The notes under the pieces: model-generated | Told to the model about the DNA's origin: nothing | Seen by the model: only the letters and a program-made list of their open reading frames with translations | Databases searched by the model: none | Shown: positions 13,288-43,963 of the stretch, piece by piece | How positions within the stretch are numbered: the first letter of the stretch is position 1 | How the letters are laid out: the number at the start of each line of letters is the position of its first letter | Program-made: the position numbers and the translations under genes | DNA from: Bacillota bacterium | GTDB taxonomy: Bacteria > Bacillota > Clostridia > Lachnospirales > Lachnospiraceae | Length of the DNA stretch: 44,035 bases | Assembly (NCBI GenBank): GCA_023663285.1 | Contig: JAMPHT010000002.1 | Location: forward strand, 70,932 to 114,966 | Reading direction: 5' to 3'

Positions 13288-13764
13288 TCATTTCTTTCCT
13301 TTCAGCGCCCGCTTCATCCTCGCCACTGTTTTTGACAAAAAAGGCCGGAGCGGCCGAATCTTAAGCCAGACTGCCGAAAGCATCCGGTAAAAGGGATTTC
13401 TTACGGAAAAACATTTTCCTCTGCGCACCACCTGGTATAAGATTCCTTTCATTTGTTCCGCTTTCAATGGACCTTCTATCTCGCTCTGGTTATCCCCCAC
13501 CAGATAGAAGCCCTCCGGCTTCCGTTTCCAGATGCGGTGCAGTACCAGAATACTTCCTTCCCTGCGGTATAGCACTACATCTCCACGCTTTAATTTCTCC
13601 GCGTCCGCAGGAACAATGACCGCCTCGTCCCTGCCGGGGACAAACAGCGGATACATACTATAGCCCTGAGGGTGGATACGAATACTTTTTCCCTCCGCCA
13701 GCAGCGCCTCTATATCCACGCCCTTTGTCCCGTTGTCCTTCTTTGTTGTCTCCTGTGCTTCCAT
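13288..13764 (-). CDS. S26-family (signal peptidase I-like) serine peptidase, Ser/His type
   Basis: 158 residues. The nucleophile motif GYSMYP (Ser36) sits in the usual box. The second box, GDVVLYRREGSILVLHRI, has His76 where bacterial LepB has Lys, as in the ER/SipW-type branch. VGDNQSEIEG matches the conserved GDN box. There is no hydrophobic N-terminal anchor; instead a basic amphipathic C-terminus (residues ~125-158) may touch the membrane. The gene follows the ABC exporter at 108 bp, and the twin leader-bearing proteins lie just upstream. It may cleave their leaders, since the exporter has no C39 peptidase domain. The ribosome site GGAGG is ~15 nt from the ATG, so a slightly later start is possible. 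Confidence 0.82.
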   Translation of the reverse strand: MEAQETTKKDNGTKGVDIEALLAEGKSIRIHPQGYSMYPLFVPGRDEAVIVPADAEKLKRGDVVLYRREGSILVLHRIWKRKPEGFYLVGDNQSEIEGPLKAEQMKGILYQVVRRGKCFSVRNPFYRMLSAVWLKIRPLRPFLSKTVARMKRALKGKK

Positions 13765-13872: not shown

Positions 13873-15672
13873 TCAGAAGTTCCGTATCATCTCATCGATC
13901 TCGCTCTCCTCAAGACAGACGCAGCGCCTGTCCCGTATGGCATAGACCCTGCTGCACATACTTAAGACCGTAGGCCGGTGAGTGGTCAAAATACAGGTGC
14001 GGGGATAGGAATCCTTCAGGATATTCTGCAGGACCTTCCGCTCCGTAGCCACATCCAGCGCCGATGTCGCCTCGTCCATCAGCAGAATGGGCGATTTCCG
14101 GATCAATGACCTTGCAATGGAAAGCCGCTGGGCCTGTCCTTCCGAGAAGCCTCCGCCCCGCTCGCCTACCTTTGCATTGATTCCATCCCCCAACCTGCTC
14201 ACAAAGTCCCAGGCACAGGCCATCCTCAATGCCTCTATGATCTCCTCATCCGTGGCGTCCGGCTTCACGTTCCGCATATTTTCCGCAATGGTGCCTGAAA
14301 ACATGGTATTCCCCTGGGGTACATAGGAAAAAAGCTTCCTGGTGGATGGACTCATCTCCATCCTGTCCGCCCCCGAAAAGATACTGATACTCCCTTCCTT
14401 TGGAAAAATCAGCGAAAGCAGCAGCCTCAGCATGGTCGTCTTGCCCTCGCCGGAGGGTCCCACCAGCGCAATGATCTCATGGGGATGGGCCTCGATGGAC
14501 GCCCCCGCAAAGACCGGCTCCCCGCCGCGATAGGCATAATTTACATCCGTCAGCTGTAGTGACACGCCTTCCGCCCGATGCCGTTCACCAAATGCTGCCG
14601 CCTCCTCGCCATGGCTGTAATCCTCCTGGGGCATTTCCACAATGTCCATGAGCCGCCCCGCAGAGGTAGTCAGGCTGATGACGGAAGGGACCAGGGAAGT
14701 CAGATTATGCAGAGCGCCTGTCAGGGTCCCGGACAAGCTCAAAAACAGGGTCATCGTGCCGTAGTCAATGGCGCCGCTCCACACCCGGTAGATACCCCAG
14801 CCGTAAGCGCCGTAGGAAACCAGCATGGACACCACGGACAACAACAGCGACGTTCCCATGGACATCCGCTGGAACTCCAGCCGCATACTGATATAGTCCG
14901 CCTGAAGGCGCTTCAGCTTACTGGTGTAAAAGGGAATCAGGTCAAATGCCTTGATAGTCTGGATATTGGAAAAGGTCTCCTGGTTAAAGCCGGACATCTT
15001 TGCTCCCATGGCGGCGCTGCGCTTGTTGTTGTTCACCATGCGGCGCATAAGGGTCTTTGACAGAAGCAGGCTCACCGGCATACCTAAGAATGCAAAAATA
15101 GCAAAGGACACATCATTGGCCACCACCACCACAAAGGCGCTGATAAAACGGAACAGATAGATGATCATATTCGGCACAAAATTCAACACACCGTTAGAAA
15201 TATTGGAGGCGTCGCTGCTCCATCTGGTCAGCAGATCCCCGGTGTGATACTGTGTCAGGGACTCCCAGTCCGTCACCAGTATCTTGGAAAAAATATCGGA
15301 CTTGATCTCCGAGTCCACTTTCATGCCGATCCAGGAAGAGGCGTAGCTTGAGATCTGGTTCACGATCGTACTGCCTATTCCTAAGCCTATCATGGCGGCA
15401 AAGGTCTTTACCACCTCTCCCGCCTGAAAGCCTGTAATGATATTTACCAGATCCCTGGAGACAAAGCTGGACAACAGCGACACCACCGTCCCCGTCAATC
15501 CCAGCAGGGTATAAAAAATCATGGCAAGCCAATAGTGGCGGGCATACTCATAAATCCACTTAGTCTGCCGCAGCATCTCCTGAATGCGTCCGGCCTTGAT
15601 CCTGCCCATATAAAATTTTACCCGTTCCCGAACGCTCATGCCGGATGCCCTCTCACTTTTTCGGTAGGACAC
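13873..15672 (-). CDS. ABC exporter (fused membrane and ATPase domains), likely for the twin small proteins
   Basis: 599 residues, a half-transporter of the ABCB/MsbA-like class that would work as a homodimer. Six membrane segments fill residues ~50-330. The ATPase domain has Walker A GPSGEGKTT (near 404), signature SEGQAQRLSIARSL, Walker B ILLMDEATSALD (near 527) and a switch His in LTTHRPT. There is no N-terminal C39 peptidase domain. A GTG start at 15672 has AGGA at good distance; ATG at 15639 with GAGAGG is an alternative. It follows the twin leader proteins across a strong terminator and precedes the S26 peptidase, so export of those proteins is the natural guess. Confidence 0.9.
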   Translation of the reverse strand: MSYRKSERASGMSVRERVKFYMGRIKAGRIQEMLRQTKWIYEYARHYWLAMIFYTLLGLTGTVVSLLSSFVSRDLVNIITGFQAGEVVKTFAAMIGLGIGSTIVNQISSYASSWIGMKVDSEIKSDIFSKILVTDWESLTQYHTGDLLTRWSSDASNISNGVLNFVPNMIIYLFRFISAFVVVVANDVSFAIFAFLGMPVSLLLSKTLMRRMVNNNKRSAAMGAKMSGFNQETFSNIQTIKAFDLIPFYTSKLKRLQADYISMRLEFQRMSMGTSLLLSVVSMLVSYGAYGWGIYRVWSGAIDYGTMTLFLSLSGTLTGALHNLTSLVPSVISLTTSAGRLMDIVEMPQEDYSHGEEAAAFGERHRAEGVSLQLTDVNYAYRGGEPVFAGASIEAHPHEIIALVGPSGEGKTTMLRLLLSLIFPKEGSISIFSGADRMEMSPSTRKLFSYVPQGNTMFSGTIAENMRNVKPDATDEEIIEALRMACAWDFVSRLGDGINAKVGERGGGFSEGQAQRLSIARSLIRKSPILLMDEATSALDVATERKVLQNILKDSYPRTCILTTHRPTVLSMCSRVYAIRDRRCVCLEESEIDEMIRNF

Positions 15673-15704
15673 TGAACCTCATCCTACATCTGTCGTATAT
15701 CTGT

Positions 15705-15740: not shown

Positions 15741-15778
15741 CTCTTTTTGTTCCCTAATTTATGTCTGCCGCAACAAAA

Positions 15779-16207
15779 TCAATCAAATCCGCCCTGTACA
15801 TTTACAACATGGGTACAGACAATACCGGAACTGGTTACTGCTAACCCTTTCGGCCATATCTTTAACAGAGAGTCATAATTATCTCCGGAATAATATGCAT
15901 TTGCATGAGACTCTCTTGTCAGCGTCACTGTATTCCCGCTCACCTCAGCAGAACCTTCAAATTCGGCTGCTGATACAGAACCATTAAATACAACCGTCAC
16001 AACCGTCTTTGAAGAAATATGCGTCACACCATCACTATGCTTAGCCTTCACCCGATAAGTTGAATATCCTCCTGCATCCTGTTGATCCATGGTGACATCA
16101 ACCTTCCAGCAATCGCTGCTCGTTTCTTCAGCAGCACCGCTCGCTGCATACACACCCTCAGCCACATCCTCATTTGCCAATACTATCGGCTTTTCATAAT
16201 TCATCAT
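15779..16207 (-). CDS. Leader-bearing small beta-sandwich protein A (candidate export substrate)
   Basis: 142 residues. Residues 4-25 (YEKPIVLANEDVAEGVYAAS and two more) are almost identical to those of protein B, while the rest is diverged. There is no hydrophobic signal peptide. The leader is acidic with small residues at its end, like a ribosomal-peptide or double-glycine type leader. The body (33-142) is strand-rich with Ser/Thr/Val and is framed by Cys33 and Cys131, the disulfide placing known in CBM2-like domains, which suggests life outside the cell. Both genes share the same ribosome region (GGGAGAGG, TAAAG). The ABC exporter and S26 peptidase follow. Function unknown; cargo role is inferred. 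Confidence 0.75.
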   Translation of the reverse strand: MMNYEKPIVLANEDVAEGVYAASGAAEETSSDCWKVDVTMDQQDAGGYSTYRVKAKHSDGVTHISSKTVVTVVFNGSVSAAEFEGSAEVSGNTVTLTRESHANAYYSGDNYDSLLKIWPKGLAVTSSGIVCTHVVNVQGGFD

Positions 16208-16315
16208 CTTTACCCTCTCCCTTCCTAATGCACTGCTTTCTATCCTTTAAAGCCTGTGATTGCAGTATTTTCACAAGCTTTCATGTACATTTACAACTCG
16301 CCCGTTTTTACTTTC

Positions 16316-16702
16316 TTACTTCACTTCAACCGAATCACTGCTATACGACACAACAACTTCAACAGTTATCTTTTCACCTACCGGAATCGCTCCGCCACCA
16401 CCGGGTGTTATGGTTATCGTACTCCCGCTTAATGATGCACTTGCCAGCCAGCCATTGTATACCTGCGCACCTGTTGCTGTGCCGGAAGTAACAGATATAT
16501 TGACCGACCAATCCGTTGATTCTTCGCTTCCACTGTTCTTTATGGTTACCTTGTATGTATTGACCTTATTGTATTGACTACCTGCACTTGTCAACTCCAC
16601 ACCGGACACTGACACAGAGCCTGCCGGCGCTCCACTGGCCGCATATACCCCTTCTGCCACATCCTCGTTGGCCAGCACCACCGGCCTTTCATAATTTGTC
16701 AC
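16316..16702 (-). CDS. Leader-bearing small beta-sandwich protein B (candidate export substrate)
   Basis: 128 residues from a GTG at 16702 that lines up base for base with the ATG and ribosome site of gene A; a longer frame from further upstream lacks support. After the shared leader (NYERPVVLANEDVAEGVYAAS), the body resembles a CBM2 or related beta-sandwich: KNSGSEESTDWSVNISV, then QVYNGWLASASLSGSTITIT, then GEKITVEVVVSYSS. It has no cysteine. After the stop TAA the same frame continues for 14 codons and contains a 14-nt match to the end of gene A, so B may be shortened by a nonsense change. Carbohydrate binding is a guess from fold resemblance. Confidence 0.72.
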   Translation of the reverse strand: MTNYERPVVLANEDVAEGVYAASGAPAGSVSVSGVELTSAGSQYNKVNTYKVTIKNSGSEESTDWSVNISVTSGTATGAQVYNGWLASASLSGSTITITPGGGGAIPVGEKITVEVVVSYSSDSVEVK

Positions 16703-16791
16703 CTTTATCCTCTCCCTTCTTCTTTCCGCTGTTTTAACAACAGTCAAAAATTTTCTGTTTTCTTCACGTCAGAACCTATAATGTTAGGACT

Positions 16792-16820: not shown

Positions 16821-16853
16821 GTATCTTTCCCAAAATTGGCAAAAAATATGTGA

Positions 16854-22263: not shown

Positions 22264-23451
22264 ATGAAGCAAAACGATAATTATATGCTCCACGAACTGA
22301 ACGGCGTCCCCTATCTCCTGCCTTTCGGACAGGGCGTGGCTGACCTGCGTCGGGGCGTTAGGATCAACCGGACCGGAGCCTACATCTGGGATCTGCTTGA
22401 TACGGAAATAACAGAGGAACAGATCCTCTCTCTCTGCGCCGCCCATTTTCACGCCGCTGACGAAGAGCTTCCGCAGCTTCAGGCGGATATATTGCAGTTT
22501 TTAAACAGCCTCCGGCTTTGGGGTCTGCTGCAGGAAGGATCCTGCCCTGCCGCTCCCGCCGCCGGAGACAGATACCTTTCTATCGGCGGACTGACTCTGT
22601 CCTTCACCGGCCCGGAAAAATATTTTTCCGCTGATTTTTCTGCCTTTTGCATACCCGCCGTTTCCCCGGACGCCATTGACCAGCGCTTTGAGCTTCGTCC
22701 CTTTGCCCCCGGCTCTCACCCCCTGGGCAGGATCCTGCTGCGCAACAGCCAGCTGCTGGTGCTGGAAAACGAGGTCGGCTATATCCTGGTCTTTCCGGCG
22801 GCGGAAAGTCCCCTGGAGATCCGGCTCTCCTCCGACGGTTCCCAGGTTTTGATCTTTGCCGGCGGGGAGCCCACAGAGCTTTTTGTAAAGGATATCTTCC
22901 ACGCCATCCGCCTCTGCTATCTCTTTCTGGCACAGCGAAAGGGTCTGTTTGCCCTGCACTCCGCCTCTCTTCTGTATCGGGACCACATCTGGCTGTTTTC
23001 CGGGCATTCCGGCGCCGGCAAGAGCACCCACACCAATCTCTGGAAGAGACTTTTACAGGTGCCCCTTGTCAACGGCGACTTAAACCTCCTGGAGCTGTCA
23101 GCAGCACAGAGCCCCAGAGTACACGGCCTGCCCTGGTGCGGCACCTCCGAAATATCCACCCCCGGCCTCTGGCCCCTGGGCGGCATCGTTTTCCTCAGAC
23201 AGGCTCCCAGTGATACTGTGGAACAGCTCCCTGAAGAGGAAAAACAATTATTGGTTGCACAGCATCTGATCTCTCCCGTCTGGACCAGGGAGCAGGCAGC
23301 CTTAAACCTCCATGGAGCGGAAACTGCAAGCAGACGTCTCCTTATCTGCCGCCTCTGCTGCACCAAGGAATCCACGGCTGTGGATACCGTCCGCGCCGTC
23401 ATGGATCAGTGGCTGGACGGCCTCACTTCCACAGCTTCATCTGCTCCATGA
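22264..23451 (+). CDS. PqqD-like domain fused to HPr-kinase-like P-loop kinase
   Basis: 395 residues. Residues 1-95 look like a PqqD-type peptide-binding (RRE) domain (GVRINRTGAYIWDLLDTEIT). Residues ~105-390 are an HPr kinase/phosphorylase-like domain with P-loop GHSGAGKS (247-254) and the downstream VNGDLNLLEL and GLWPLGGIVFL blocks. Such kinases occur in ribosomal-peptide clusters, where HPrK-like PadeK/PsmK phosphorylate lasso peptides, and in the SynChlorMet cassette. It is not the carbon-control HprK: the N-terminal domain and genomic setting differ. It is convergent with the nucleotidyltransferase, overlapping by 29 bp. The ribosome site is weak. The substrate may be the leader proteins or a sugar-linked acceptor; this is unknown. 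Confidence 0.8.
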   Translation: MKQNDNYMLHELNGVPYLLPFGQGVADLRRGVRINRTGAYIWDLLDTEITEEQILSLCAAHFHAADEELPQLQADILQFLNSLRLWGLLQEGSCPAAPAAGDRYLSIGGLTLSFTGPEKYFSADFSAFCIPAVSPDAIDQRFELRPFAPGSHPLGRILLRNSQLLVLENEVGYILVFPAAESPLEIRLSSDGSQVLIFAGGEPTELFVKDIFHAIRLCYLFLAQRKGLFALHSASLLYRDHIWLFSGHSGAGKSTHTNLWKRLLQVPLVNGDLNLLELSAAQSPRVHGLPWCGTSEISTPGLWPLGGIVFLRQAPSDTVEQLPEEEKQLLVAQHLISPVWTREQAALNLHGAETASRRLLICRLCCTKESTAVDTVRAVMDQWLDGLTSTASSAP

Positions 23452-24634
23452 CCCGACTGCGCTCCGAAGCCTTCCGCAGGATCGTGCGCCCTGAAACCCC
23501 TCGGATCTTCCGATTGTTCCGCAAAAATCTTATCAGTGTCACCACCCAGAGCACAGGCCATAGAGGGAACCATTTTCCTGCCCGTGGAAAGTTCAGATGC
23601 ATCTGATGCTGAAACTCCCAGACATAGCCCACAAGTCCGGGCTTTCGCAGTACTACCATTCGCTCTTTGGAGGACTTTCCGAATTCCTCCGCCTCCAGGA
23701 CCTCCCGCATAAAGCCCTCCGCCCTTAATTGCATCGGAAGCCCCATCCAGTCTACACGTTCCTTTTCCAACCCCAGATACTGACAGCAGGCTTTTGTTAC
23801 CATGTCGGAAAATCCCTTCACCCTGCTCTCCCGCACCAGCTCCAGATACCTTCTGCGCTCTTTCTCAGACACTTCCTCTCTCCATAATACCACCCAGTCG
23901 CAGAGGAACCGCAGTCCGAACCCGGAACGCAGAAAATGCTGCAGCATATGCAGAAGCAGTTCAAATGCGTGACAGCCATAATCCAGCATAGGCAGCTCCA
24001 CCCCCATGACCTCCCGTCGAACCCTGTGTTCCAGACACTCCGGCAGCTTTTCCTTCAGATATTCGTTTATCTGCTCATTGTCGAAGGGCTCCGCCAGCAT
24101 AGTATGGATCTCTGTCTCGATTCCCTCCTCCGTCACCAGCACCACATGATGCAGGGCAGGCTGCCGCTCCGCCACCCTGCAGCCGATCTTTTCCAGCTCC
24201 CTGCAGGCTGCCTCCAGATGTTCGGGATGTACCAGCAGGTCAATATCTCCCGCCTTGCGCAGCTCCGGTTCCGGGTAAGAGCGGGCTGCAGCGACACCCT
24301 TCAGCACTGCTACAGGGATCCCTGCTCCTTCCAGCTGCCGCACTGCCGCCCTGGTGGCAAAAAGCAGCCGATAGCTTTGCAGCACTATCCCCCTTGCCTC
24401 CTGTGCCACTGCTTTTCTAAGCTGCTCCGGAAGCTCCTCTGTTCCCATGCAGGGGTAACAGAGCAGGGAAAGCACGGAATGTCTGCGGGCCACCGTCTCC
24501 AGCCGATTCCAGTCCATCGTCTTTTTCACTTTTTCGTCCATTGCCGCCACTGCGCAGCTTTCCGCCGGCTCCTTCTCTGTCAGCCCCTCTCCCAGCAGCT
24601 GCAGTAGCAGATACTCTTCCTTACCTGTTTCCAT
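23423..24634 (-). CDS. NTP_transf_5 family nucleotidyltransferase
   Basis: 403 residues. The nucleotidyltransferase motif is LKG (111-113) followed by AGDIDLLVHPEHLE (128 onward), with Asp130 and Asp132 as metal ligands and IETEIHTML as the third block, the pattern of PF14907. A hydrophobic stretch near residues 360-375 may touch the membrane. Relatives occur beside HPrK-like kinases in lasso clusters; in the pseudomycoidin cluster PsmN works with the kinase to add sugar to a phosphorylated peptide. Here it is the last gene of the polysaccharide run, 6 bp after the flippase, and faces the HPrK-like gene. Confidence 0.82.
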   Translation of the reverse strand: METGKEEYLLLQLLGEGLTEKEPAESCAVAAMDEKVKKTMDWNRLETVARRHSVLSLLCYPCMGTEELPEQLRKAVAQEARGIVLQSYRLLFATRAAVRQLEGAGIPVAVLKGVAAARSYPEPELRKAGDIDLLVHPEHLEAACRELEKIGCRVAERQPALHHVVLVTEEGIETEIHTMLAEPFDNEQINEYLKEKLPECLEHRVRREVMGVELPMLDYGCHAFELLLHMLQHFLRSGFGLRFLCDWVVLWREEVSEKERRRYLELVRESRVKGFSDMVTKACCQYLGLEKERVDWMGLPMQLRAEGFMREVLEAEEFGKSSKERMVVLRKPGLVGYVWEFQHQMHLNFPRAGKWFPLWPVLWVVTLIRFLRNNRKIRGVSGRTILRKASERSRVMEQMKLWK

Positions 24635-24640: not shown

Positions 24641-26173
24641 TTACCTCTTTGATTTATGGAGGATTGCCAGTCCCTTCTGCTTCAAAAGCCTAAATTCCTT
24701 TGTGCGGTGATACACCAGTAAATACACCAGATTTGTCACAAGCAGGCAACACACCAGACGTCCGGCACACACTGAAAACAGGGAGCCAGTCATCTGTCTG
24801 CATAAAACATCCAAGCCAAACCACACTCCAAAGGTTACCGCCGCATAAATGCCATACCGTAGAAAATATCTTCCGGAAGAACACTCCAGCTTATGCCGAT
24901 ACAGCATATAAGGCTCCACCCACAGAGAGGTCGTCACCATGCTGACGGTTGTACCTATAAATACACCTATGGTTCCCAACTGCTTTCCCAAGACCCAGGA
25001 AACAACAAGATTGATAACCGCCTCCGCCAGGGACTTATAGCGATCATACCAGAATACTCCCAGGGAATCCCTGAAAATCAGAGTCGGCTGTCTCATACCC
25101 GTTATGTAAAAGTTCAGACACAGCACCAGCGTAATGTACTCTGGGAACACATACTGACTGCCGAAAAACAATTCCACAAAGGGATTCAACACCTGATAAA
25201 GACAGATAGCGACCATGCCGTACACCCACTGTCCCATAAAAAAAGAAGCCTCAAAAATCTTCCTGACACGCCCCGGACTGCTTTCCACTCCCAGATTTCC
25301 TACACTTGCAGTGATCCCGCCGAACATCTGGGCAAGCACCTGCTGAATGGAACCGATGATCAGAAAATAATTGGTATAGCAGCCCACACTGCGGATTCCT
25401 ACCAGCGCGGAAAGTAACAGATTGTCTGTGCTGTTTACGATTACCGTACTGGTCTTGTGCATCAGCATGGCACGGATATTACGGAAAATCCCCTTCCGCT
25501 CCTCCTCCGGAAGCTTTTCCGCCTTTTTGTCCTGCAGATAAGGATACATCCTGTCAGCCTTTGCAGAGATACACAGATTATTTGCTATAGTACACACTGC
25601 CATCACGGATACATAAAGCATAAAGTTTTTCGTGAGCAGAAGTACTCCTATCTGCAGCAAGCTCTGCGCAAACCAGGACATTGTCTGATAAAGCACTCCT
25701 ATATAGCTGAGCTGATGGGCATCCACCAGAGTCCTCTTATAAACAAACGTATAGGACAGTACGGAGTTTGCAAGGTACAACAGATATATCAAGGTCAAAT
25801 GTTCCACTCTTGGCTGATCTCTGAACAGGTATCCCAGAAACGGGACTAACAGCAGCCCCAGCGTCAGCACCATGCCTGCCACTCCCCGGTAAAAATTGCG
25901 GTACATCCGCATCAAAGCTTTCTGCTTCTCTATATTTCCCTCGGAAATAGGCTTGTACAGAGCGTAGGTAATGGCAGTCCCCACTCCCAGCTCCGACAAC
26001 GCAAGCACATTCAGTATGTCTGTAAACAGTCCGTTGATTCCCACATACTCTTCGCTGAGAGTATGGGTAAATACCACTCTTGCCACAAAACCGGCAAGCA
26101 TGGCGAGAATTCGGGAGCACATTGCCACCGTTGCATTTCTCGCCGAATATTCAGTCCTGCTTTTCTCCGTCAC
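24641..26173 (-). CDS. Oligosaccharide flippase (Wzx/MATE-like)
   Basis: 510 residues with ~14 predicted membrane segments and the N-terminal polysaccharide-transporter pattern (SRILAMLAGFVARVVFTHTL, EYVGINGLFTDILNVLALSELGVG). Such proteins flip lipid-linked repeat units or teichoic-acid-type intermediates across the membrane. GTG start with GAGAGGA upstream; the start lies one base behind the Stealth-gene stop. It is a second exporter besides PelG, suggesting that the operon handles two glycans or a main chain plus a decoration. Confidence 0.88.
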   Translation of the reverse strand: MTEKSRTEYSARNATVAMCSRILAMLAGFVARVVFTHTLSEEYVGINGLFTDILNVLALSELGVGTAITYALYKPISEGNIEKQKALMRMYRNFYRGVAGMVLTLGLLLVPFLGYLFRDQPRVEHLTLIYLLYLANSVLSYTFVYKRTLVDAHQLSYIGVLYQTMSWFAQSLLQIGVLLLTKNFMLYVSVMAVCTIANNLCISAKADRMYPYLQDKKAEKLPEEERKGIFRNIRAMLMHKTSTVIVNSTDNLLLSALVGIRSVGCYTNYFLIIGSIQQVLAQMFGGITASVGNLGVESSPGRVRKIFEASFFMGQWVYGMVAICLYQVLNPFVELFFGSQYVFPEYITLVLCLNFYITGMRQPTLIFRDSLGVFWYDRYKSLAEAVINLVVSWVLGKQLGTIGVFIGTTVSMVTTSLWVEPYMLYRHKLECSSGRYFLRYGIYAAVTFGVWFGLDVLCRQMTGSLFSVCAGRLVCCLLVTNLVYLLVYHRTKEFRLLKQKGLAILHKSKR

Positions 26174-26174: not shown

Positions 26175-27209
26175 TTATCCTCTCATTCTGCAGCCGATAG
26201 CTGCCTCATCCTGTTCAAACACTGAGGGAGTCGGTAATATCTGCTGAAACGCTCCTCTGATCGCTTTTCCCGCTTCCTCCGCCTGATTTTCAGGAATAGA
26301 TACGTCGTTGATACATATGGTTTTTTTCTTTTGTTTTCTGATGGTACGAAGCAGTCTGTCCGTTTTGCCGATTACCGTGAAAAATGCAAAATCCTGCTGT
26401 ATATTCTTTGGCCGGAAGCGTCCTGACAGTTTCTGATATTCTCGAAACAAATAAGGCGTTAAGTCATCCCGGCTGCGGAACCGATTAGCTGACATCTTTT
26501 CCAGCGCTTCCCCTTCCTTCTCCCACAACTCCTGAAAGGTGCTTTTTAAGAAAGGCATGGGACCATGCACCGTATAGAAGCCCGTAAACCGTGGAAAAAA
26601 AAGCTCCAGAAAATTATAGCAAAAATACAGAGGGGGATATCCGATGTGAAAATAGCTTCCCGGTTGTCTGCGCACATTTTCCCGTTTGTCAAAATATTTG
26701 GACAATACCAGCGCATTGTTTAAAAACAGATGAGACATCACCGGATTGTCCCTGTTTGCCACTACCGGCTGCAGAGCCAGCATATCGCAGGGCAGACCCC
26801 CCCTGAAAAAATATTCCGGCTTTACCGGTTTTGTCAAATACATATCGTCATTGAAATAGACAAACTGCTCTGCAAGCCCCCTGATACGGTATAGATAGAT
26901 TTCTATTACGTTCCCGTTAAAGGTGGGAAGAAATTCTGCAGGAATAATGTCCTCATGCCGCACCACATTCAGCCTGGGGCAGTCTGTATTCAACCACTCC
27001 GGTATATGCCCCCAGGTCACCAGATGTACCTTGCGCACCCAAGGTGCAAACTTTTCTACACCTCTGAACCAGTAGCGGAACAGCCCCCAGTCCCGATATC
27101 TCTCGGCTCTTCCGTCCTCCCCTTCTCCGGGGGCATACTTTTCCCTGCTCCGGCGCCAGTCCGGATCACTTTCATTCAGCCAGGTTACTACAAAATCGAT
27201 CTCCTGCAT
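26175..27209 (-). CDS. Stealth-family hexose-phosphate transferase
   Basis: 344 residues. Conserved regions appear in order: IDFVVTWLNESDPDW (region 1), RYRDWGLFRYWFRGVEKFAPWV through VHLVTWGHIPEWL (region 2), and GNVIEIYLYRIRGLAEQFVYFNDDMYL (region 3). Stealth enzymes move hexose-1-phosphate from UDP-sugars onto capsule or teichoic-acid-like chains. This predicts a phosphodiester-linked sugar in the surface polymer. The gene sits between a DUF4832 protein and the flippase. Confidence 0.92.
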   Translation of the reverse strand: MQEIDFVVTWLNESDPDWRRSREKYAPGEGEDGRAERYRDWGLFRYWFRGVEKFAPWVRKVHLVTWGHIPEWLNTDCPRLNVVRHEDIIPAEFLPTFNGNVIEIYLYRIRGLAEQFVYFNDDMYLTKPVKPEYFFRGGLPCDMLALQPVVANRDNPVMSHLFLNNALVLSKYFDKRENVRRQPGSYFHIGYPPLYFCYNFLELFFPRFTGFYTVHGPMPFLKSTFQELWEKEGEALEKMSANRFRSRDDLTPYLFREYQKLSGRFRPKNIQQDFAFFTVIGKTDRLLRTIRKQKKKTICINDVSIPENQAEEAGKAIRGAFQQILPTPSVFEQDEAAIGCRMRG

Positions 27210-27238: not shown

Positions 27239-28966
27239 CTACTCAAGAATTCGAGCCATCCACTCCGGAAACTCTTGTTTCCAGAGTTCTTTTATTTCTT
27301 CGGTTTCTCCCAGTTTCAGCGTACCCACCCTGTAACCTATTCTATCCGGGTCCTGCTCATTTCCCAGCAGTATTATTTCCCCCGACAAAGCATCGGACAT
27401 ATGGAAATATACCTCATACTCTCCCTGAGGCATCCCGCCCATGGAAAGTTCCCAGCGCAGCGTCTTTTGTTCGTCAGACTGGGTGCCTCCCGCCAGATCC
27501 CTAATATCCTGCGTCGGATCACAGACATAGGAATATTCTCTTCCATGCTCCCTGTCATACAGAACCAGTTCTACCTGCGTTTCTCTGTATATCGGTGCAA
27601 ATCCCACGTTTTGAAGTGTTATCTCCGCCGTCAGCCCGTCCTCTTTCCAGTCATACTCCAACTCCGCTTTCCGCAGCACCAGGCGGTAACCCAAATGCCG
27701 CTCCATATAGGTCAGTCCGTCCATGCCGTTAAAACAGCCGTCCTCCTGCACAGTGGTTTTTTCCCACTTGTTGAACACCCTGGTATCAAAATCCCGGTTG
27801 GCGTAGGTGACGTGCATGGCCTTCATATCCGCCAGCGCATTTTCAAAATCATTATAAGAATTAGGATTCATGATTTCCCCGCCAATAGGTACGATTCTGC
27901 ACAGAATGTCCTGAAAAGCCAATTCCTCCTGACGATTCCAGAAAGTGAAGTCTCCATGCTCCGCCCGTGTCTGATCTCCGTAGGTTCCGTAATCGCTCCA
28001 GCTTCCCAGCATACCATCATTAAACAGGCCCAGTCGGGATGCCAGAGTTCCGTCCCCCCGATCTACCAGACTCGGATCTCCGATTCCCGTAATCATTCTC
28101 CACTGGGCAGGCATACGCACGGAAAGATAAGTACTGTCCGCCGTCGCCTCGTATAATGCTTCAGCAAGAGCCTGATAATTCTCCGTGCCCAGAAATTTTG
28201 AGCTGTGCATCTCCCCCCAACTGCCGATAAACAGGCCCTGGGTCAAAAATATCTGGTCGCTGTGTTCCTTCAGCCAGGGTCCTACCTGTTCTATATGCCG
28301 CAAAATGGTATCCAGACTGTCCGGCTCATACTGCAGATTTTTCCCATCCCAGTCATAGAGAAAACGTATGATCAAATGCTTGTCATCCACATGCTCCTCC
28401 AGGGCCCGGAACAGATTATCCAGGCTTTGCAGACCCTTCTCCGAGATCTCCCTGCTTTTAAAATATTGCAGGTTTATCTGAATCATTGTCAGGCTGGTCT
28501 TGTTATCCTTGGCATATCTCCAGCCAAGATCTTCCTGAAAGCTCTCAAAGCTCCTGACTTCATCTTTAATGAAGTAACCGTGCATATGATAAAATCCCCT
28601 GTTTGGATTCTTCAGTTCCCTGGCAGACTCTGTAAATTCAAAGCTTTCCGCTGTACCCATACCATGTCCCCTGGCCTCCAGATAATTCTGCCAAAGCGTG
28701 GAAAAATGCCCCAACAGCGCTGAGAACTGATTGGAAAGCGCCGTATGCTCCCCCGTAAGTGTGGAATGCTCCTCCGTAAGCCCCGAATACTCATCAGAAA
28801 GTGCCGCAAGCCGTTCTGACAGCGCCAGCGCCTCGCCATCCCGTTTATATAGCATCCAGCCTGTCCCTCCCAAAAGCAATAGCAGACAGAAAACAAACAG
28901 GCTCACAATGACACGCGATAACCTATGCTTCTTTTTTTGCCTTTCCTGCTCTTTACTCACTTCCAC
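27239..28966 (-). CDS. Membrane-anchored DUF4832 protein with coiled-coil stalk
   Basis: 575 residues. Basic N-terminus, one membrane segment (17-40), then seven heptads in a row (residues ~49-97, units such as LSDEYSG, LTEEHST, LTGEHTA) that should form a coiled-coil stalk. The rest is a DUF4874 plus DUF4832 module like that of the protein at 31389-32765, with GSWGEMHSSKF as the shared core. The family resembles glycoside-hydrolase TIM barrels; the Glu in WGEMH may be catalytic. It would act outside the cell on the polymer. The start overlaps the upstream gene by 10 bases. Confidence 0.85.
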   Translation of the reverse strand: MEVSKEQERQKKKHRLSRVIVSLFVFCLLLLLGGTGWMLYKRDGEALALSERLAALSDEYSGLTEEHSTLTGEHTALSNQFSALLGHFSTLWQNYLEARGHGMGTAESFEFTESARELKNPNRGFYHMHGYFIKDEVRSFESFQEDLGWRYAKDNKTSLTMIQINLQYFKSREISEKGLQSLDNLFRALEEHVDDKHLIIRFLYDWDGKNLQYEPDSLDTILRHIEQVGPWLKEHSDQIFLTQGLFIGSWGEMHSSKFLGTENYQALAEALYEATADSTYLSVRMPAQWRMITGIGDPSLVDRGDGTLASRLGLFNDGMLGSWSDYGTYGDQTRAEHGDFTFWNRQEELAFQDILCRIVPIGGEIMNPNSYNDFENALADMKAMHVTYANRDFDTRVFNKWEKTTVQEDGCFNGMDGLTYMERHLGYRLVLRKAELEYDWKEDGLTAEITLQNVGFAPIYRETQVELVLYDREHGREYSYVCDPTQDIRDLAGGTQSDEQKTLRWELSMGGMPQGEYEVYFHMSDALSGEIILLGNEQDPDRIGYRVGTLKLGETEEIKELWKQEFPEWMARILE

Positions 28967-35160: not shown

Positions 35161-36696
35161 CTACGCCCCCCCCATTTTCTTTTTTTTCATCTGCACTGCC
35201 TGCTGTCGTTCCCTGTTCCTGCCGTTTTCCGAACTGTCCGCCCCTTGGCCGCTGCCAATACCGCCTTTCACATAGACCAGGTTGGAGGGCTTCCGCCCCT
35301 TCCCCCTTTTCAAAATGCTGCCGTTGCAGAATATATGTACGTCCATGGTCTTTTCGATCCTGCGCAGTCTGTAGTAGGCCATGACCCAGCCGGCGAAAGA
35401 GCCTGCCACCACCCCCATTCCAAACCACAGCGGGCTTAAACGGCTGGCATAAATACTTCCCGCCAGAGTCACTGCAAAGAAGGTGACGGACGTCATCATT
35501 GCCCCTGTCATATCGTTAAAATAGTACTGAAAGATAATGGCCGCATACATGATGAACAGAATGAAATAGCCTGCAGCCAGGCAGGGATAGATCCGCATGA
35601 TCTGTCCGCCGAAGCCTATCTTTGGAAGCAGGATGATGCAGATGAAGAAGATCACCACAGACACAATAAACTGCAGCCGGGTCAGATTCATCAGCTCTTC
35701 CGAGAGCTGCCCGAACATCATCTTCTTGGCGTCCTCAATGTCTGCGCCCCGGCCGCCGATGACCGCCTCGGAATATGCCTTGTACCGCTCATGAAAGTGC
35801 ATCTCCACCCTGGAAATAAAGATCATACTTGCGGTGATATTGGTGAACATGGCAAGACAGGTAGCCATGTCGTAGGTGGGCATACAGATAAACCCGCCCT
35901 TCACCTCCATTCGCATATCCGTGGACCAGAACACAAAATTATGGACATACATCCCCACTGTATAAAGAGTGTTGGTGATAGTCAGCTGCCAGTGGCTCTT
36001 AAAATACTCCAGCACCTCCCGGTATTTCCCGCTGTTTTTTCTAAAGTAGCTCTTGATCAACGCCAGCTCCAGACATCCGATCACCAGAAAGCCCACCGTC
36101 AGCGAAACCACGATACTGTAGATCACATCTACTTTGAACAGCTTTACCAGCGCCAAAGACAATAAGATCGCCACGGCCATACCTATCAGGAAAAACACGG
36201 ATATTTTCTTATAATCCTTACATATGGACAGATACAGCATGGAATAAAATACCATGACAAGGCTCATGTACCCGCAGTAGCTGATAAAGACAAACACCAG
36301 CTCCACGCCCAGCAGATGCTCCCGAATGCAGAACGGGATCCCCACAATGCAGCTCAACAAGATATTCAGCGTCAATCCCACGTAATAACAGGGCAGGATG
36401 TCGTCATAGGTCTCGTTGTAGATAACATCCGAAAGATACCGTGACAGTACCGCGTTGAAGGGCGCCGCCGTAGTAAGTGAAAAAATGAAAATATACAGCA
36501 CCGTGCAGGAACACAGCTCTCTGGAGGCATAGTCGATCTTTGCATATCCCAGTATCTGCTGCATGACGATCAATGCGCCGATCACCAGAAACATGGGCGC
36601 GATGGTGATGACCATACTGTATCCGAAGCCTATCAGGTTAGTGGTGATCGTGTTCTTGCTGAATATTCGATTCAATCTAACGCCAATACCTGCCAT
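35161..36696 (-). CDS. pelG: PelG, polysaccharide exporter of the MVF/flippase superfamily
   Basis: 511 residues with about twelve membrane segments. The N-terminal block (IGFGYSMVITIAPMFLVIGALIVMQQILGYAKIDY) and SRYLSDVIYNE are typical of PelG. In Pel systems PelG works with the glycosyltransferase PelF at the inner membrane to export the polymer. A basic, Gly/Ser/Arg-rich C-terminal tail (~50 residues) is longer than usual. It sits 56 bp after pelF. Confidence 0.93.
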   Translation of the reverse strand: MAGIGVRLNRIFSKNTITTNLIGFGYSMVITIAPMFLVIGALIVMQQILGYAKIDYASRELCSCTVLYIFIFSLTTAAPFNAVLSRYLSDVIYNETYDDILPCYYVGLTLNILLSCIVGIPFCIREHLLGVELVFVFISYCGYMSLVMVFYSMLYLSICKDYKKISVFFLIGMAVAILLSLALVKLFKVDVIYSIVVSLTVGFLVIGCLELALIKSYFRKNSGKYREVLEYFKSHWQLTITNTLYTVGMYVHNFVFWSTDMRMEVKGGFICMPTYDMATCLAMFTNITASMIFISRVEMHFHERYKAYSEAVIGGRGADIEDAKKMMFGQLSEELMNLTRLQFIVSVVIFFICIILLPKIGFGGQIMRIYPCLAAGYFILFIMYAAIIFQYYFNDMTGAMMTSVTFFAVTLAGSIYASRLSPLWFGMGVVAGSFAGWVMAYYRLRRIEKTMDVHIFCNGSILKRGKGRKPSNLVYVKGGIGSGQGADSSENGRNRERQQAVQMKKKKMGGA

Positions 36697-36752: not shown

Positions 36753-38630
36753 CTACGTGCTTTCCACGTCAGGATCCTCTAAGTCGAAGTCCTCCGCGTC
36801 CAGATCCTCTATATCATAATCTTCCATATTCGCGCCTGCGGCGGTGAAATCATCCAGGACAAAGCCTTCCTCGTCAAAATCCCTTCCATCTGCCGCCGAG
36901 TCGTAATCATCGCCCTCCGAAGCTGCCCGGCCGTAATCGTCGTCCTCGGCAGCCTCCGCTGCATGATCCGGATGCCGGAGCGTCCAGCCGTAACCGCTTG
37001 CAGCAGTATCTCCGTAGTCATATTCCTCATGATACTTCTCATGATATTCCTGCGATTCCTTTCCATGGCCGTCCGTATCTGCCGCCTCTGGAAGCTCCGC
37101 GCCATAACCATCTGCCGCCTCCGAAAGCTCCGCTCCATAGCCGTCTGCGGCCCCCGAAGGCGTCGCGCCGTAGCCGTCCGTCTCATCATCCTCTCCCGGC
37201 CAAATCTTTCCGTATTCCCAGCCTATCTTTGTATAAAGCTGCTCATAGGTCTCTATCATCTGGCTCAGCTGATAATTTGCTTTCAGCCTGGCGTAGCCAC
37301 ATTCCCCCATGGTTCTCCGCCGTTCCGGAGACTGGGCAAGCTCCCTGATGGCGGCGGTGATCTCCTCCACATTCATAATGTGGGTCAGTATCCCGGCAGC
37401 CCCCAAATCGTCGCCCTCCTCACCGTATATCAGGCCCCGGCAGTTTCCTACATCCGTAGCGATCACAGGCTTTTTGGCCGCGTAACCCTCCAGGATCGTC
37501 AGGGGCTGTCCCTCACTGACGCTGGTCAGTATCGTAAAGTCCATCCTGCCCAGATATTCCCGCACATCGATACGCCCGGTAAAAATCACATCCCTGACCC
37601 GCATTGCCTCCACCAGCTGGTAGCACTCCTCCGCATACTCCTTGTCCTCATCCACCGGTCCCATGATCCACAGACGCAGCGCCGGGTTCTGCTCCTTTGC
37701 AAAGGCAAAGGCCCGGATCATGGTCTTGACATCCTTGATGGGGGCCACACGAAGCACTGCACCCACGTTGATATATCCTTCATCCTCCGGCTGCTTCCCC
37801 GGTATATCGGCAAAACGGCTCATGTCGATACCGTTGGGCGTGACCTTTGTTTTTTCCTCCTCGCACCCCAGCCCCAGCTGCAGCTGCCTTGCATGCTCAT
37901 ACAGGCTGGTGACGCCGTCTGCTCTTTCATAGGCAAGCCGGGACATCTTTCGGAACTGGTCGATCCATACATTTTTATAGATACCTTCCACCCAGTTAGC
38001 CTTCAGCAGTTCCTCCTCTCTCTCTCTGGTATAGATACCATGCTCTGATATCAACAGCCCGCTCCGGTAAAAATGCTTTGCCATACTCCCCAGTACCCCT
38101 GCATACCCGGTGGCCACGCAATGATAAATGTCCGCTTTCGGCAGCGGGGTCTGCAGGATCAGAAATAGCGGCATATAGATAGAACGCATGGTCCAGAGGA
38201 AATCGGAAAAGACAATCAGGGGATATCTTCTCTGATAGCACTCCTTCACAATATTCAAAAAATCCGCTCCCATCAGCAGGTCGTCAATGGAAAAACGCTT
38301 TTTCTGGAACAGGTTAAAGACAGTGTCCCAGTCCACAGCCTCATCCAGCAAAATGCTTCTCAGCGCCTTGTATTCTTCTTTATTCAGCTGGGTCCGCTTC
38401 CCGCTCTTGCGCTTATGTCCCCAGTCCAGATCCTCCAGATATGCCTCGTAGACCTCCGTCACATTATCCGGCAGTTCATAGACGAACTTCCCGCTCTGAG
38501 CACGTTTGGAAACTATGGCAAGCACCACGAACTCCACCTTGGGAAACGCCCTTATCATACTGTGGATCCAGCTGGACACCCCGCCCACCACATAGGGGTA
38601 ACAGCCCTCTGCTACAATACATATTTTCAC
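36753..38630 (-). CDS. pelF: PelF, Pel polysaccharide glycosyltransferase with unusual acidic tail
   Basis: 625 residues. Residues 1-478 are a PelF-type GT4 protein: MKICIVAEGCYPYVVGGVSSW, then LLISEHGIYTREREEELLKA, NVGAVLRVAPIKDVKTMIRAF and the E-x7-E in SVSEGQPLTILEGYAAKKP. PelF polymerises UDP-GalNAc/GlcNAc-type sugars. The last 147 residues (479-625) are an Asp/Glu/Tyr/Gly-rich tail not found in ordinary PelF, with three 11-residue repeats of type DGYGAELSEAA. GTG start with GGAGAA upstream. The tail is probably disordered; whether it binds a partner is unknown. Confidence 0.93.
   Translation of the reverse strand: MKICIVAEGCYPYVVGGVSSWIHSMIRAFPKVEFVVLAIVSKRAQSGKFVYELPDNVTEVYEAYLEDLDWGHKRKSGKRTQLNKEEYKALRSILLDEAVDWDTVFNLFQKKRFSIDDLLMGADFLNIVKECYQRRYPLIVFSDFLWTMRSIYMPLFLILQTPLPKADIYHCVATGYAGVLGSMAKHFYRSGLLISEHGIYTREREEELLKANWVEGIYKNVWIDQFRKMSRLAYERADGVTSLYEHARQLQLGLGCEEEKTKVTPNGIDMSRFADIPGKQPEDEGYINVGAVLRVAPIKDVKTMIRAFAFAKEQNPALRLWIMGPVDEDKEYAEECYQLVEAMRVRDVIFTGRIDVREYLGRMDFTILTSVSEGQPLTILEGYAAKKPVIATDVGNCRGLIYGEEGDDLGAAGILTHIMNVEEITAAIRELAQSPERRRTMGECGYARLKANYQLSQMIETYEQLYTKIGWEYGKIWPGEDDETDGYGATPSGAADGYGAELSEAADGYGAELPEAADTDGHGKESQEYHEKYHEEYDYGDTAASGYGWTLRHPDHAAEAAEDDDYGRAASEGDDYDSAADGRDFDEEGFVLDDFTAAGANMEDYDIEDLDAEDFDLEDPDVEST
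37081..37179. repeat. Three 33-bp tandem repeats within the pelF tail
   Basis: Units at 37081-37113, 37114-37146 and 37147-37179 each code for 11 residues (DGYGA, two variable, S/P/E, AA). They differ by several bases each, so they are not fresh. The repeat lies at the start of the acidic tail, and its copy number could vary between strains. Confidence 0.75.
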
Positions 38631-38651: not shown

Positions 38652-40484
38652 TCATCCCGGAAAGTAAAATTCTGTCTCTCCCTGCTTTTTCTCAAGCTGC
38701 AGCTGCGCGGAATGCGCAGTGATATGAATCAGATAAGTGTCATCCTCCAGGCAACGGTAATCTCCCCCCTGCATCTCTTTCACAGTCTCTCCGTGAGTTC
38801 TCAGCAGAAACCACGCTTCTTCCGCTCTCTCCGTATTTATAGTAATGGTATCTCCCTGCCTGAACTGCGTATATTCCAGATTCAAAAAGTTCCTCACCCG
38901 CCTGTCGCTCTCAGTCAAAGTGGTACTTTCAAACCTGTCCTTCTCCAGCCAGTAGGTTCCCACATTACTTGAAATCTCGTCAAAATAATTTTCCCACTGC
39001 TCTTCTTTTGACTGCGGCCAAAACGCCGGTTTCATGTCCAGCAGCAGATTGGAATAACCCAAAGCCGTGTCCAGGCTTCTTAACTGTAGATCCCGCGAAT
39101 AGGTATATGTACTTGCATTTCCTGTAACACACTGCACCGTGATTCCGTCATTGTAATAAGACAGCAGCTGTCCGCCTTCCCGGTAACTGCTCACCACCGT
39201 TCTTACATTCTCCAGGCTTCCGTCCGTAAGCGCCTCTTTCTCCGCATCCTCCAGTATTTCTCCGGCGTAATAGGCACTGAACTGATAGGAAATGTCATTC
39301 TGTTTCCAAAATACCCTATCTCTGACAAGCTTCTCCGCCAATGACACATTCCCTTTATATTCAAGGGTCTGTCCGGCTTCTCCGCTGATTTCTTTCAGCT
39401 GCTGCAGGAAAAATACAATATCTTCCCCCGAAGGCTCCGCATCGTCTCCGTAATCATATTGTGCCATGAAAAAGCAGGTAAGCTTTCTCTTGTTCAAATC
39501 CGAAAGTGCCGACAATCCCGGCCACATCACATCCTGCTGCAAGGCGCCCGGACTGCGGCTATAGAGTTCGTTCAGCTTCTCCACATTCTCCCCGGCAAAG
39601 CCCGGAAAATTTGCTATGGTTGCATTTTGCGCATTGACCACCGGATACAAAGCATAATCCTCCAATTCGTAGACAAATCCGCTTAAAAATCCCATTCCTG
39701 ACACCCGTGTCATATAATTGCCATTCACCGCAAATACAAAGGTCCCCCGAAAATTATTACGCCAAACAATCGGCGGAAACATTTCCCGCTCTATTTCATC
39801 TTCGTCCAGCAATCCTGTCATATACACCTTAGTCCCTTTGCCCAACCGATACCAGGACACATCCGTAACCAGGTCCTGCAGTTCCTTATCTTCCTCCCTG
39901 CTGACCTTATAGGTAACACCTCCGCCCAGCAGGAACCCGGAATACAGCTGGATCCCCTCCGTCTCTACCGAAAACGCCGCCACTTCCGAAATTCCCAGAA
40001 GACTTTTAAGCCCTGTACAGCTTTCCAGCACCCGCGCCTGAGGCAGGCGCAGGAACACCATGGCCGTCCCTGTTTCAGCCAGCTCCAGCAGCGTCTCCTC
40101 CTGCAGAGGCAGCTCCAACGATTCCCCGTCGATCAGCAGCATTTCCGCCGGGTTTTCCCGCAAAAGCTCCAGCATCTGCTCAGGGCTTTCCGCCACAGTC
40201 AGGCTGTGCTTTGTGTACAGGCACCACTGACTTACCACGTTAGCCAGTTCTCCCCCTGCTTTCCCAAGGAACAGAATATCCGGCGCATCCGTTTCTTCGG
40301 AAGCCTCCCAACGTTCCGTCCCCGACGGGACATCTCCCCCCACATATGCATTTATATCGTATGCGTTCCCGCCCTCCTTAAACAGAAGGAAGAACTGGAA
40401 CATGAAAAACAGCACTGCCATCATGGTACATATGCTGAAAAAGTTCCGACGAGATACCATTCCTGTCCCCTTCTTCATACTCAC
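38652..40484 (-). CDS. DUF2194 protein, PelA-like component of the Pel locus
   Basis: 610 residues. One N-terminal membrane anchor (residues ~12-33) and a large outer part with the DUF2194 pattern (FVFAVNGNYMTRVSGMGFLSG, YALYPVVNAQNATIANFPG, FMAQYDYGDDAEPSGED). In Gram-positive pel-like loci this gene takes the place of pelA, the hydrolase/deacetylase. I do not see a clear D-HxxxH metal triad, so deacetylase activity is unproven. The GTG start overlaps the PelE-like stop; ATG 40478 is an alternative start. Confidence 0.82.
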   Translation of the reverse strand: MSMKKGTGMVSRRNFFSICTMMAVLFFMFQFFLLFKEGGNAYDINAYVGGDVPSGTERWEASEETDAPDILFLGKAGGELANVVSQWCLYTKHSLTVAESPEQMLELLRENPAEMLLIDGESLELPLQEETLLELAETGTAMVFLRLPQARVLESCTGLKSLLGISEVAAFSVETEGIQLYSGFLLGGGVTYKVSREEDKELQDLVTDVSWYRLGKGTKVYMTGLLDEDEIEREMFPPIVWRNNFRGTFVFAVNGNYMTRVSGMGFLSGFVYELEDYALYPVVNAQNATIANFPGFAGENVEKLNELYSRSPGALQQDVMWPGLSALSDLNKRKLTCFFMAQYDYGDDAEPSGEDIVFFLQQLKEISGEAGQTLEYKGNVSLAEKLVRDRVFWKQNDISYQFSAYYAGEILEDAEKEALTDGSLENVRTVVSSYREGGQLLSYYNDGITVQCVTGNASTYTYSRDLQLRSLDTALGYSNLLLDMKPAFWPQSKEEQWENYFDEISSNVGTYWLEKDRFESTTLTESDRRVRNFLNLEYTQFRQGDTITINTERAEEAWFLLRTHGETVKEMQGGDYRCLEDDTYLIHITAHSAQLQLEKKQGETEFYFPG

Positions 40485-43608: not shown

Positions 43609-43911
43609 TTATTCCTTACCGATAACGACTCCCTGGGCTTCCAGACCCGCCAGGAAACCACGCACATCCGCAAGCGCCGTTTCCCTGTGGATCTGATATC
43701 GGCTGCTCAGCTGCTCCGCAGCAGCTTCTTCCTGCATCCCCTGCTGTAAGAATCCCCAGATCTCCGCTCCGACCTGATTCAGCGAAAGCGGCGGTCTCCT
43801 GCTGCCCGGCTCCTGCATCATATCCAGCAGCCAGTAGGTGCCTGCCGCGTGTCTCAGCTGCCACCGCTCAGGTTCTTTTATCCTGTTCTCTGCCACCCGT
43901 TTGCTCTCCAT
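43609..43911 (-). CDS. PqqD-like peptide-binding protein
   Basis: 100 residues from ATG 43911. Pattern: RWQLRHAAGTYWLLDM, LSLNQVGAEIWGFLQQGM, EAAAEQLSSRYQIHRETALADVRGFLAGLEAQGVV, the winged-helix PqqD/RRE fold that binds leader peptides. An ATG at 43953 lies upstream of the -10 and cannot be in the transcript, so it is rejected. Leader is short with no clear Shine-Dalgarno site. As the first gene of the polysaccharide operon it is out of place unless the operon also handles a leader-bearing peptide. Confidence 0.8.
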   Translation of the reverse strand: MESKRVAENRIKEPERWQLRHAAGTYWLLDMMQEPGSRRPPLSLNQVGAEIWGFLQQGMQEEAAAEQLSSRYQIHRETALADVRGFLAGLEAQGVVIGKE

Positions 43912-43935
43912 AAAAATGATAACTACCCAGATTTT

Positions 43936-43963
43936 ATTATAGCACAAAATCACGATTTTGCAA
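43936..43963 (-). promoter_or_regulatory. Promoter with overlapping operator-like inverted repeat for the polysaccharide operon
   Basis: TTGCAA (43963-43958), a 16-bp spacer and TATAAT (43941-43936) on the minus strand. A perfect inverted repeat CAAAATC-AC-GATTTTG (43945-43960) fills the spacer and the edge of the -35, where a repressor would block polymerase. A second TTGCAA is spaced 3 bp upstream (TTGCAA-CAG-TTGCAA). No regulator gene for it is in the window. Confidence 0.6.

Follow-up and report, generated by a model that had tools for sequence, protein, structure and literature searches.

The closest described relatives of the system reported here are the linear polyphosphorylated peptides (LPP), published in May 2026 (Popov et al. 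2026, PMC13381572). For genes of Paenibacillus alginolyticus it was found that a YxxP leader is bound by LppB, a PqqD-type RRE protein, that the HprK-like kinase LppK phosphorylates Ser3 (S3) of the core and that the SipW-like peptidase LppS cuts after F-E-T (T-1), a step that requires LppB and is stopped by loss of Ser29, His68 or Asp93 (PMC13381572). The NTP transferase had no effect in the authors' host, export of the product is not shown in the sections of the paper considered here, and by the authors' own account the final product has not been identified and the biological role is unknown (PMC13381572). The S26 cluster of these systems comprises 126 members, and the authors consider a patchy pattern of gain and loss to be characteristic of conflict genes (PMC13381572).

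Two further systems bear on the locus. The phosphorylated lasso peptides paeninodin and pseudomycoidin likewise depend on a gene set with an RRE, a Ser-phosphorylating kinase, a nucleotidyltransferase and an ABC exporter, and PsmN has been linked to a hexose on the phosphoserine (PMC9266682). For Gram-positive pel loci, the accessories described are CotH, a poly-phosphate polymerase, DUF4956 and DUF4832; a nucleotidyltransferase appears in one supplementary legend, and the main text, as far as it was covered, makes no mention of PqqD, a signal peptidase or an ABC transporter (PMC7112168).

Here we analyse a 44,035-nt stretch of a Lachnospiraceae contig (the window), in which the five functions of the LPP core set are present within positions 13288–24634. 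Two genes of this region encode small proteins, A and B, for which a preliminary description knew no described system of the same make-up; that view does not survive, as this set of genes is already described for LPP, whose precursors combine a YxxP leader with highly variable C termini (PMC13381572). We read A and B as the cargo of an LPP-like maturation and export system, related to lasso machinery and with a Pel-linked role, and give this reading a probability of roughly 0.68.

RESULTS

Proteins A and B share a leader and differ in their bodies

Protein B (128 aa, GTG start, positions 16316..16702) and protein A (142 aa, ATG start, 15779..16207) are encoded on the minus strand, followed on the same strand by an ABC exporter gene and an S26 peptidase gene, with gaps of 106–108 bases between the four. 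The coordinates given for the pair at the outset (15779..16702) are correct. The first 24 residues of the two proteins (16631..16702 in B, ending ...EGVYAASG, and 16136..16207 in A, both minus strand) are nearly identical and the remainder is unlike, so the shared leader of the preliminary description stands, at a length of 24 residues. Searching the organism's own genome with the leader of B returned B itself and A (E 2.9e-10), and beyond these two no match at E ≤ 10. The stretch AAGGGAGAGG ahead of the start codon is also common to both genes. Across the 21 leader codons from Tyr to SG, the genes show 12 synonymous differences and 2 residue changes; the leader thus looks to be maintained by selection at the protein level rather than freshly copied. 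No hydrophobic signal is found in the first 35 residues, where the highest 15-residue Kyte-Doolittle mean is 0.83 for A and 0.92 for B, just as had been noted before.

The body of B exceeds the Pfam cut-off for CBM_2 (PF00553, 26.4 bits versus 24) and matches the Cex CBD (1exg) with an E-value of 0.0047. In the Cex CBD, Trp residues serve in polysaccharide binding; in the alignment with B the first of them is replaced by Tyr, the second is kept and the third is absent. We consider this body a putative carbohydrate-binding domain. The His-rich protein A reached the cut-off of no Pfam family, gave no match at E ≤ 1 in a profile search of the PDB and, in a search of NCBIfam with 34 A-type proteins, yielded scattered weak matches (best E 0.0025); that its body may be a beta-sandwich is our guess. 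Cys33, Gln42, His57, His63 and Phe74 are invariant among A-type bodies (alignment of 34). Neither A nor B matched PHROGs at E ≤ 0.1. Of the earlier claim that both bodies are CBM2-like, only the half concerning B holds. The two bodies are indeed unlike each other, as was also claimed: hhalign gives a Prob of only 1.1 for the body of B against 21 bodies of the A group, although one phmmer edge (L048_9926, E 1.2e-6, in a set of 39 sequences) links B to that group.

The leader defines a family

The preliminary description had proposed a search with the leader alone across the family, and this search brought up the same leader in front of different bodies. Searched with the 25 N-terminal residues of B, 397 genomes of this family yielded 39 matches, which lie in 23 of them. 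With a leader-only profile the count rose to 40 (30.7–60.3 bits) in the same 23 genomes, while the remaining 374 had no match at E ≤ 0.001. Leader genomes are spread over 19 of 334 genera. A class-level sweep of 391 genomes, few of them from the organism's own family, yielded strong leader matches in two genomes only (G000 and G022); three further genomes with E-values from 3.2e-4 to 6.7e-3 had no leader-bearing open frame.

Ser-Gly lies at a constant distance from the first motif residue in all 40 leader genes of the profile search, which were not chosen by patterns requiring Glu or Ser. When leader genes were aligned, the first motif residue was Tyr in 37/38 and Pro was present in 38/38 (this alignment, like the comparison of 39 bodies below, leaves out the second leader genes of genomes G158 and G135). 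Family genomes and named loci together gave 87 unique leader proteins of the form YxxPxV...EGV[YF]xxSG, with Tyr in 83, Pro in 84 and Gly after Glu in 84; these were picked by patterns requiring Glu and, for the named-loci part, Ser, so the invariance of these two residues among the 87 is partly by construction. In 86 of the 87, Ala, Gly or Ser immediately precedes SG, and two positions ahead of that residue stands an aromatic one. Outside this set, named locus L087 reads EGVYAANVSG, with Ser-Gly shifted by two, and genome G096 has a divergent leader, TAEGIYAGSG, that lacks YxxP and adjoins its exporter gene. Neither AEGVYAASG nor EGVYAAS was matched in the open-access papers searched, and the shorter VYAASG occurs there in seven unrelated papers only.

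Gene conversion within clusters was considered as a source of leader similarity. Leaders are no more alike within a locus (0.68) than between loci of the same body type (0.69; Mann-Whitney P = 0.20), which lends no support to such conversion.

The bodies are diverse

The 39 bodies, 53–138 residues long, fall into groups of 23, 6, 3 and 2 and five singletons. The largest group holds the A-type bodies and, through the single edge mentioned above, B; it has one invariant Cys and frequently a second. The group of six is of a four-Cys type and the group of three of a short Cys-rich type. Leader proteins with Cys-rich bodies of just 53–58 residues (L056:7949-8200, L057:7893-8135, L046:9939-10184) have the shortest cargo seen. 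The group of two comprises leader proteins of genome G146 (L041:9873-10352 and L042:9665-10075) with weak ubiquitin matches (PF00240, E 1.3e-4 and 0.0015) that are under the cut-off and involve different parts; the neighbouring stretch examined holds no exporter for either. Between body groups hhalign gives Prob ≤ 13.2, save for the main group against L036 (22.3) and L047 (48.2). The bodies were formerly taken for folded beta-sandwich proteins, a picture too narrow for a cargo that includes Cys-rich and weakly ubiquitin-like forms. CBM2 is a minority among them; besides B, a relative in L109 exceeds the PF00553 cut-off (26.5 bits). There are one to three leader genes per locus, and in several clusters two or three bodies of different types stand in tandem, L109 having a CBM2, a four-Cys and a His-rich one.

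An exporter and an S26 peptidase accompany the leader genes

The ABC exporter (13873..15672, minus strand) has only ABC_membrane and ABC_tran above Pfam cut-offs, and its best NCBIfam match, TIGR02204 (MsbA_rel), is under cut-off. The C39 peptidase domain of C39-type exporters (PCAT) was not found in it with Pfam, which bears out the early view of an exporter without a peptidase of its own. The S26 peptidase (13288..13764, minus strand) resembles archaeal/SipW-type signal peptidase I (sigpep_I_arch, E 5.9e-9, under cut-off). It had been assigned to the Ser/His type, and Ser36 and His76 are in fact invariant in 18/18 aligned sequences; so is Asp91, which that assignment omits. In residue type the three correspond to Ser29, His68 and Asp93 of LppS (PMC13381572). 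A plasmid search with the S26 protein returned three records, none with 80% coverage. A short ORF after the S26 gene (12988–13236), without a Pfam match, may be a gene fragment.

For 31 of the 40 leader genes an exporter gene is found no more than 10 kb away, and in many loci it comes directly after a leader gene. Eight have none in the stretch examined, and in four of these stretches (L034, L041, L043, L046) the contig stops before the full 10 kb of flank is reached; the remaining leader gene is on a contig of 5 kb, accompanied by NTP5 alone. The expectation that the leader is always near exporter and peptidase was thus too strict. Among 28 leader neighbourhoods from 22 other genomes, the exporter was present in 19, a PqqD-kinase fusion (see below) in 18, S26 in 18 and NTP_transf_5 in 15; the nine neighbourhoods without exporter are one 5-kb contig and eight that lack the cluster, four of them running into the end of the contig. 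Named records contributed 37 loci (Lachnospiraceae 27, Acetatifactor 7, and Blautia, Gastranaerophilales and Bacterium D16-51 with one each), among which we counted the leader in 36, ABC in 35, the fusion in 30, NTP5 in 27 and S26 in 25, several of these loci being cut by contig ends and some contigs repeating those of the genome set. For Bacterium D16-51 (L089), the 12 kb covered contain a leader gene and the fusion, and no other part of the set.

Upstream of the leader genes, the window also contains AAA-ATPase/PD-(D/E)XK genes at 16854–18545 and 20491–22110. They are probably mobile, as the first has no homologue in the 28 loci (E ≤ 1e-4) or in the 37 (E ≤ 1e-50).

The make-up of the exporter leaves room for a different account, in which the leader is a recognition tag only, processing by the RRE-kinase and the S26 peptidase takes place in the cytoplasm, and the exporter has another substrate, such as a glycan or a lipid-linked precursor from the polysaccharide locus. 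An MsbA-like transporter that has no peptidase domain and sits in a polysaccharide locus would suit such a task, and the sections of the LPP paper considered do not show product export either (PMC13381572). The position of the exporter gene, within 10 kb of 31/40 leader genes and often directly after one, speaks against it, and the invariant Cys of the main body group together with the CBM2 of B would suggest an extracellular place for the bodies. We regard cytoplasmic processing of this kind as very unlikely, and export of the body by the ABC protein as probable.

A PqqD-kinase fusion co-occurs with the leader

About 5.6 kb from the leader genes, on the plus strand, a gene at 22264..23451 encodes a PqqD (RRE) domain (PF05402, E 3.5e-10) fused to an HprK-like P-loop kinase. 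It is followed on the minus strand by an NTP_transf_5 nucleotidyltransferase gene (23423..24634; PF14907, E 3.2e-39), whose product we place with the LppN/PsmN type by context rather than by direct comparison. A second PqqD protein, free-standing, is encoded upstream of the Pel genes (43609..43953, minus strand; PF05402, E 1.9e-12); such a protein is found in the window and in 7 of the 37 named loci. PF05402 was matched in 21/26 fusion sequences, the other five rows being trimmed and hence starting late. The three best PDB matches of the fusion profile, TbiB1 (5e-5), LppB (9x8z, 0.0012) and PbaB1 (9x90, 0.0014), are all lasso/LPP RREs; LppB and PbaB1 score equally, and the profile is no closer to LppB than to the lasso RREs. 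The fusion is the likely reader of the leader. While the dedicated recognition, export and cleavage system proposed in the preliminary description is borne out as to leader, bodies, exporter and nearby S26 peptidase, it had missed the PqqD(RRE)-kinase fusion, the NTP_transf_5 protein and the Pel genes.

In the kinase part, a P-loop protein, GxSGxGKST and NGD are invariant, as are His232, Lys253 and Asp272 (26 rows); Gly precedes Asp272 and replaces the first Asp of the HprK DD motif. The best PDB match of the fusion profile outside the RREs is PEP carboxykinase (E 0.012), an enzyme related to HprK. No Pfam kinase model was matched in the 26 members, and against 20 HprK proteins hhalign gave a Prob of only 13.8, with His and P-loop in the expected register, so we call this part HprK-like only with reserve.

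Among the 397 family genomes, 69 match the fusion profile at the original limit of E ≤ 1e-30, most of them via separate kinases. At E ≤ 1e-87, a cut chosen after the gap to the next value (4e-64) was seen, 23 remain. The leader occurs in 23 genomes, the fusion by this cut in 23 and both in 22 (Fisher exact test, P = 7e-34, a value that is too small because of shared ancestry, as is that for PelG below). The sole genome with the fusion only is G096, where the divergent leader lies beside the exporter; the sole leader genome without it is G146, which is 68% complete and has three leaders. It should be noted that 19 leader neighbourhoods went into the making of the profile and that 19 of the 23 fusion genomes contributed to it, which leaves 4/23 as independent observations (three with the leader by profile, one by eye).

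Leader genes are linked to a Pel-type cluster

Beyond the nucleotidyltransferase gene, and likewise on the minus strand, lie genes for a flippase (Polysacc_synt, 24641..26173; in 30/65 neighbourhoods), a Stealth family protein (26175..27209; in 15/65), presumably a sugar-phosphate transferase, and a DUF4874/DUF4832 protein (27239..28966). Farther along the same strand are those for the exopolysaccharide exporter PelG (35161..36696; PF16933, E 2e-146), a PelF-like glycosyltransferase (36753..38630, DUF3492 plus GT), DUF3492 being a domain of PelF, a DUF2194 protein in the place of the PelA deacetylase, assigned by position only (38652..40484), and an epimerase-fronted protein with an architecture like that of clostridial PelD (41405..43582). 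Positions 33575–43953 look like a Gram-positive Pel-type cluster with the free-standing PqqD gene ahead of it. The window thereby shares with the Gram-positive pelDEADAFG loci PelG, a PelF-like protein, an epimerase-fronted PelD-like gene and DUF4832, a named accessory there (PMC7112168). At least one Pel-type gene was present in 22 of 65 neighbourhoods (flanks up to 10 kb per side), a set that includes repeats of one contig under two labels (e.g. L031 = L099).

PelG was detected in 63 of 378 family genomes, 21 of which are leader genomes: 21/21 leader genomes are positive versus 42/357 others (P = 2e-18). The figure of 357 controls takes the 378 genomes drawn to be part of the 397; all 42 positives come from the latter set. 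Two leader genomes tested apart are also positive, which makes 23/23. PelG shares a contig with a leader gene, at a distance of 4–28 kb, in 18 of the 21, and the picture is similar in G391 (11 kb). PelG is absent from G096, the genome with the fusion and the divergent leader.

One may ask whether the bodies are instead bacteriocin-like antagonistic effectors sent out by a RiPP-type exporter, their diversity being driven by competition and not by a function in the matrix. A leader as patchy as this one (23/397 genomes, 19/334 genera), with one to three genes per locus and some short Cys-rich bodies, would fit, and the LPP authors tie such gain and loss to conflict genes (PMC13381572). Yet Pfam found no toxin domain in the 12 leader proteins scanned, and the CBM2 body together with PelG in 23/23 leader genomes suits a polysaccharide partner better. 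We therefore hold effectors to be unlikely. For a role of the bodies in Pel or the matrix we see about an even chance.

DISCUSSION

The leader-tagged system is a variant of LPP and not categorically new. Common to both are a SipW-like S26 peptidase, a PqqD-type RRE, an HprK-like kinase (by motif here), an NTP transferase and an MsbA-like exporter (PMC13381572). LPP precursors, one to three per locus and 35–200 aa long, have a YxxPxV N terminus and highly variable C termini, as does the present leader family, and LPP loci are embedded among polysaccharide genes like those studied here (PMC13381572). The comparison rests on descriptions; only the LPP RRE chain in the PDB was compared by sequence. 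Four features are new with respect to LPP: the RRE is fused to the kinase, the leader (YxxPxV...EGVYAASG) is distinct, the cargo includes recognisable domains, and the system is tightly linked to Pel. The RRE of LPP is a discrete protein, whereas here the main RRE is fused to the kinase and a separate PqqD is added in some loci (PMC13381572). The present leaders match the YxxPxV half of the LPP consensus YxxPxVLxHQxIxFETxxS and then continue as EGVYAASG, with Ser one residue farther from YxxP, so the LPP cleavage site and phosphosite need not map here (PMC13381572). Neither recognisable domains in the cargo nor a Pel cluster as partner belongs to LPP as described in the parts of the paper considered, and the name Lachnospiraceae, the host family in our case, is absent from its main text (PMC13381572).

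Phosphorylated lasso peptides differ in that their target Ser is C-terminal, whereas the candidate Ser here is near the leader end (PMC9266682). They also differ in the cargo, which here consists of bodies of 53–138 residues in place of a short core. Neither a macrolactam cyclase nor a B2 protease was found among the 22 window proteins scanned with Pfam. A SipW-family peptidase is known to mature a small beta-rich biofilm matrix protein, TasA of Bacillus subtilis. Whereas TasA has a hydrophobic Sec signal, A and B lack one and instead carry a leader of the RRE type, served by an ABC exporter that appears to be dedicated to it.

We suggest the following route. The YxxPxV motif of the leader would be bound by the PqqD/RRE domain of the fusion (22264–23451), and it is very probable, to judge from the domain and its PDB relatives, that an RRE does read the leader. 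The fused HprK-like kinase would then phosphorylate the conserved Ser of the ...AASG motif, a step towards which we lean with less assurance. Leader removal by the S26 peptidase is quite probable; the enzyme would cut at the leader end, with the leader presented by an RRE. Cleavage between [YF]-x-[AGS] and SG is favoured over the alternative between VYA and ASG, because the Ala, Gly or Ser at that place and the aromatic residue two positions before it mirror F-x-T. The NTP transferase may put a sugar or a nucleotide on the phosphate, and the body would be secreted by the ABC exporter. Outside the cell the bodies, some of them putatively carbohydrate-binding (CBM2), would act with the Pel-type exopolysaccharide of the neighbouring cluster.

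A bolder form of this proposal is that the phosphate on Ser is joined to a sugar by the NTP transferase or the Stealth-type protein, so that leaderless domains come to be bound covalently to the Pel-type exopolysaccharide or are seeded into it. We consider it quite unlikely. If true, gut Lachnospiraceae would possess modular, leader-addressed, glycan-anchored matrix proteins of CBM2, His-rich, Cys-rich and ubiquitin-like types.

Sibling clusters with separate RRE and kinase were noticed in the same family. The fullest one, L144, belongs to a genome that is also leader-positive (G118) and contains a kinase, S26, NTP5, ABC, a weak RRE match and a small protein with another leader, WMEPVVEVQEFAANEYVAACGDS. 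Similar small proteins occur in L143 with kinase and S26 and in L135 with kinase and RRE; the three (L144:6751-7155, L143:1580-1960, L135:5167-5589) have WxxP...QEFxxNEYVAACGDS or a close form of it. They appear to form another class of leader, served by this same machinery. Separate RREs and kinases with another leader suggest that Lachnospiraceae make wider use of systems of this sort, in which the cargo varies.

A leader of 24 residues that tolerates unrelated bodies could serve as a handle to export small proteins from Clostridia. In the form found here, the LPP toolkit handles cargo in which domains can be recognised, and in genome after genome it accompanies one defined polysaccharide cluster. 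In a bacterial family that lives mostly in the gut, an orphan RiPP-like group thus yields an idea that can be tested, namely that the leader directs small matrix proteins to export and that these may serve the Pel biofilms of gut bacteria.
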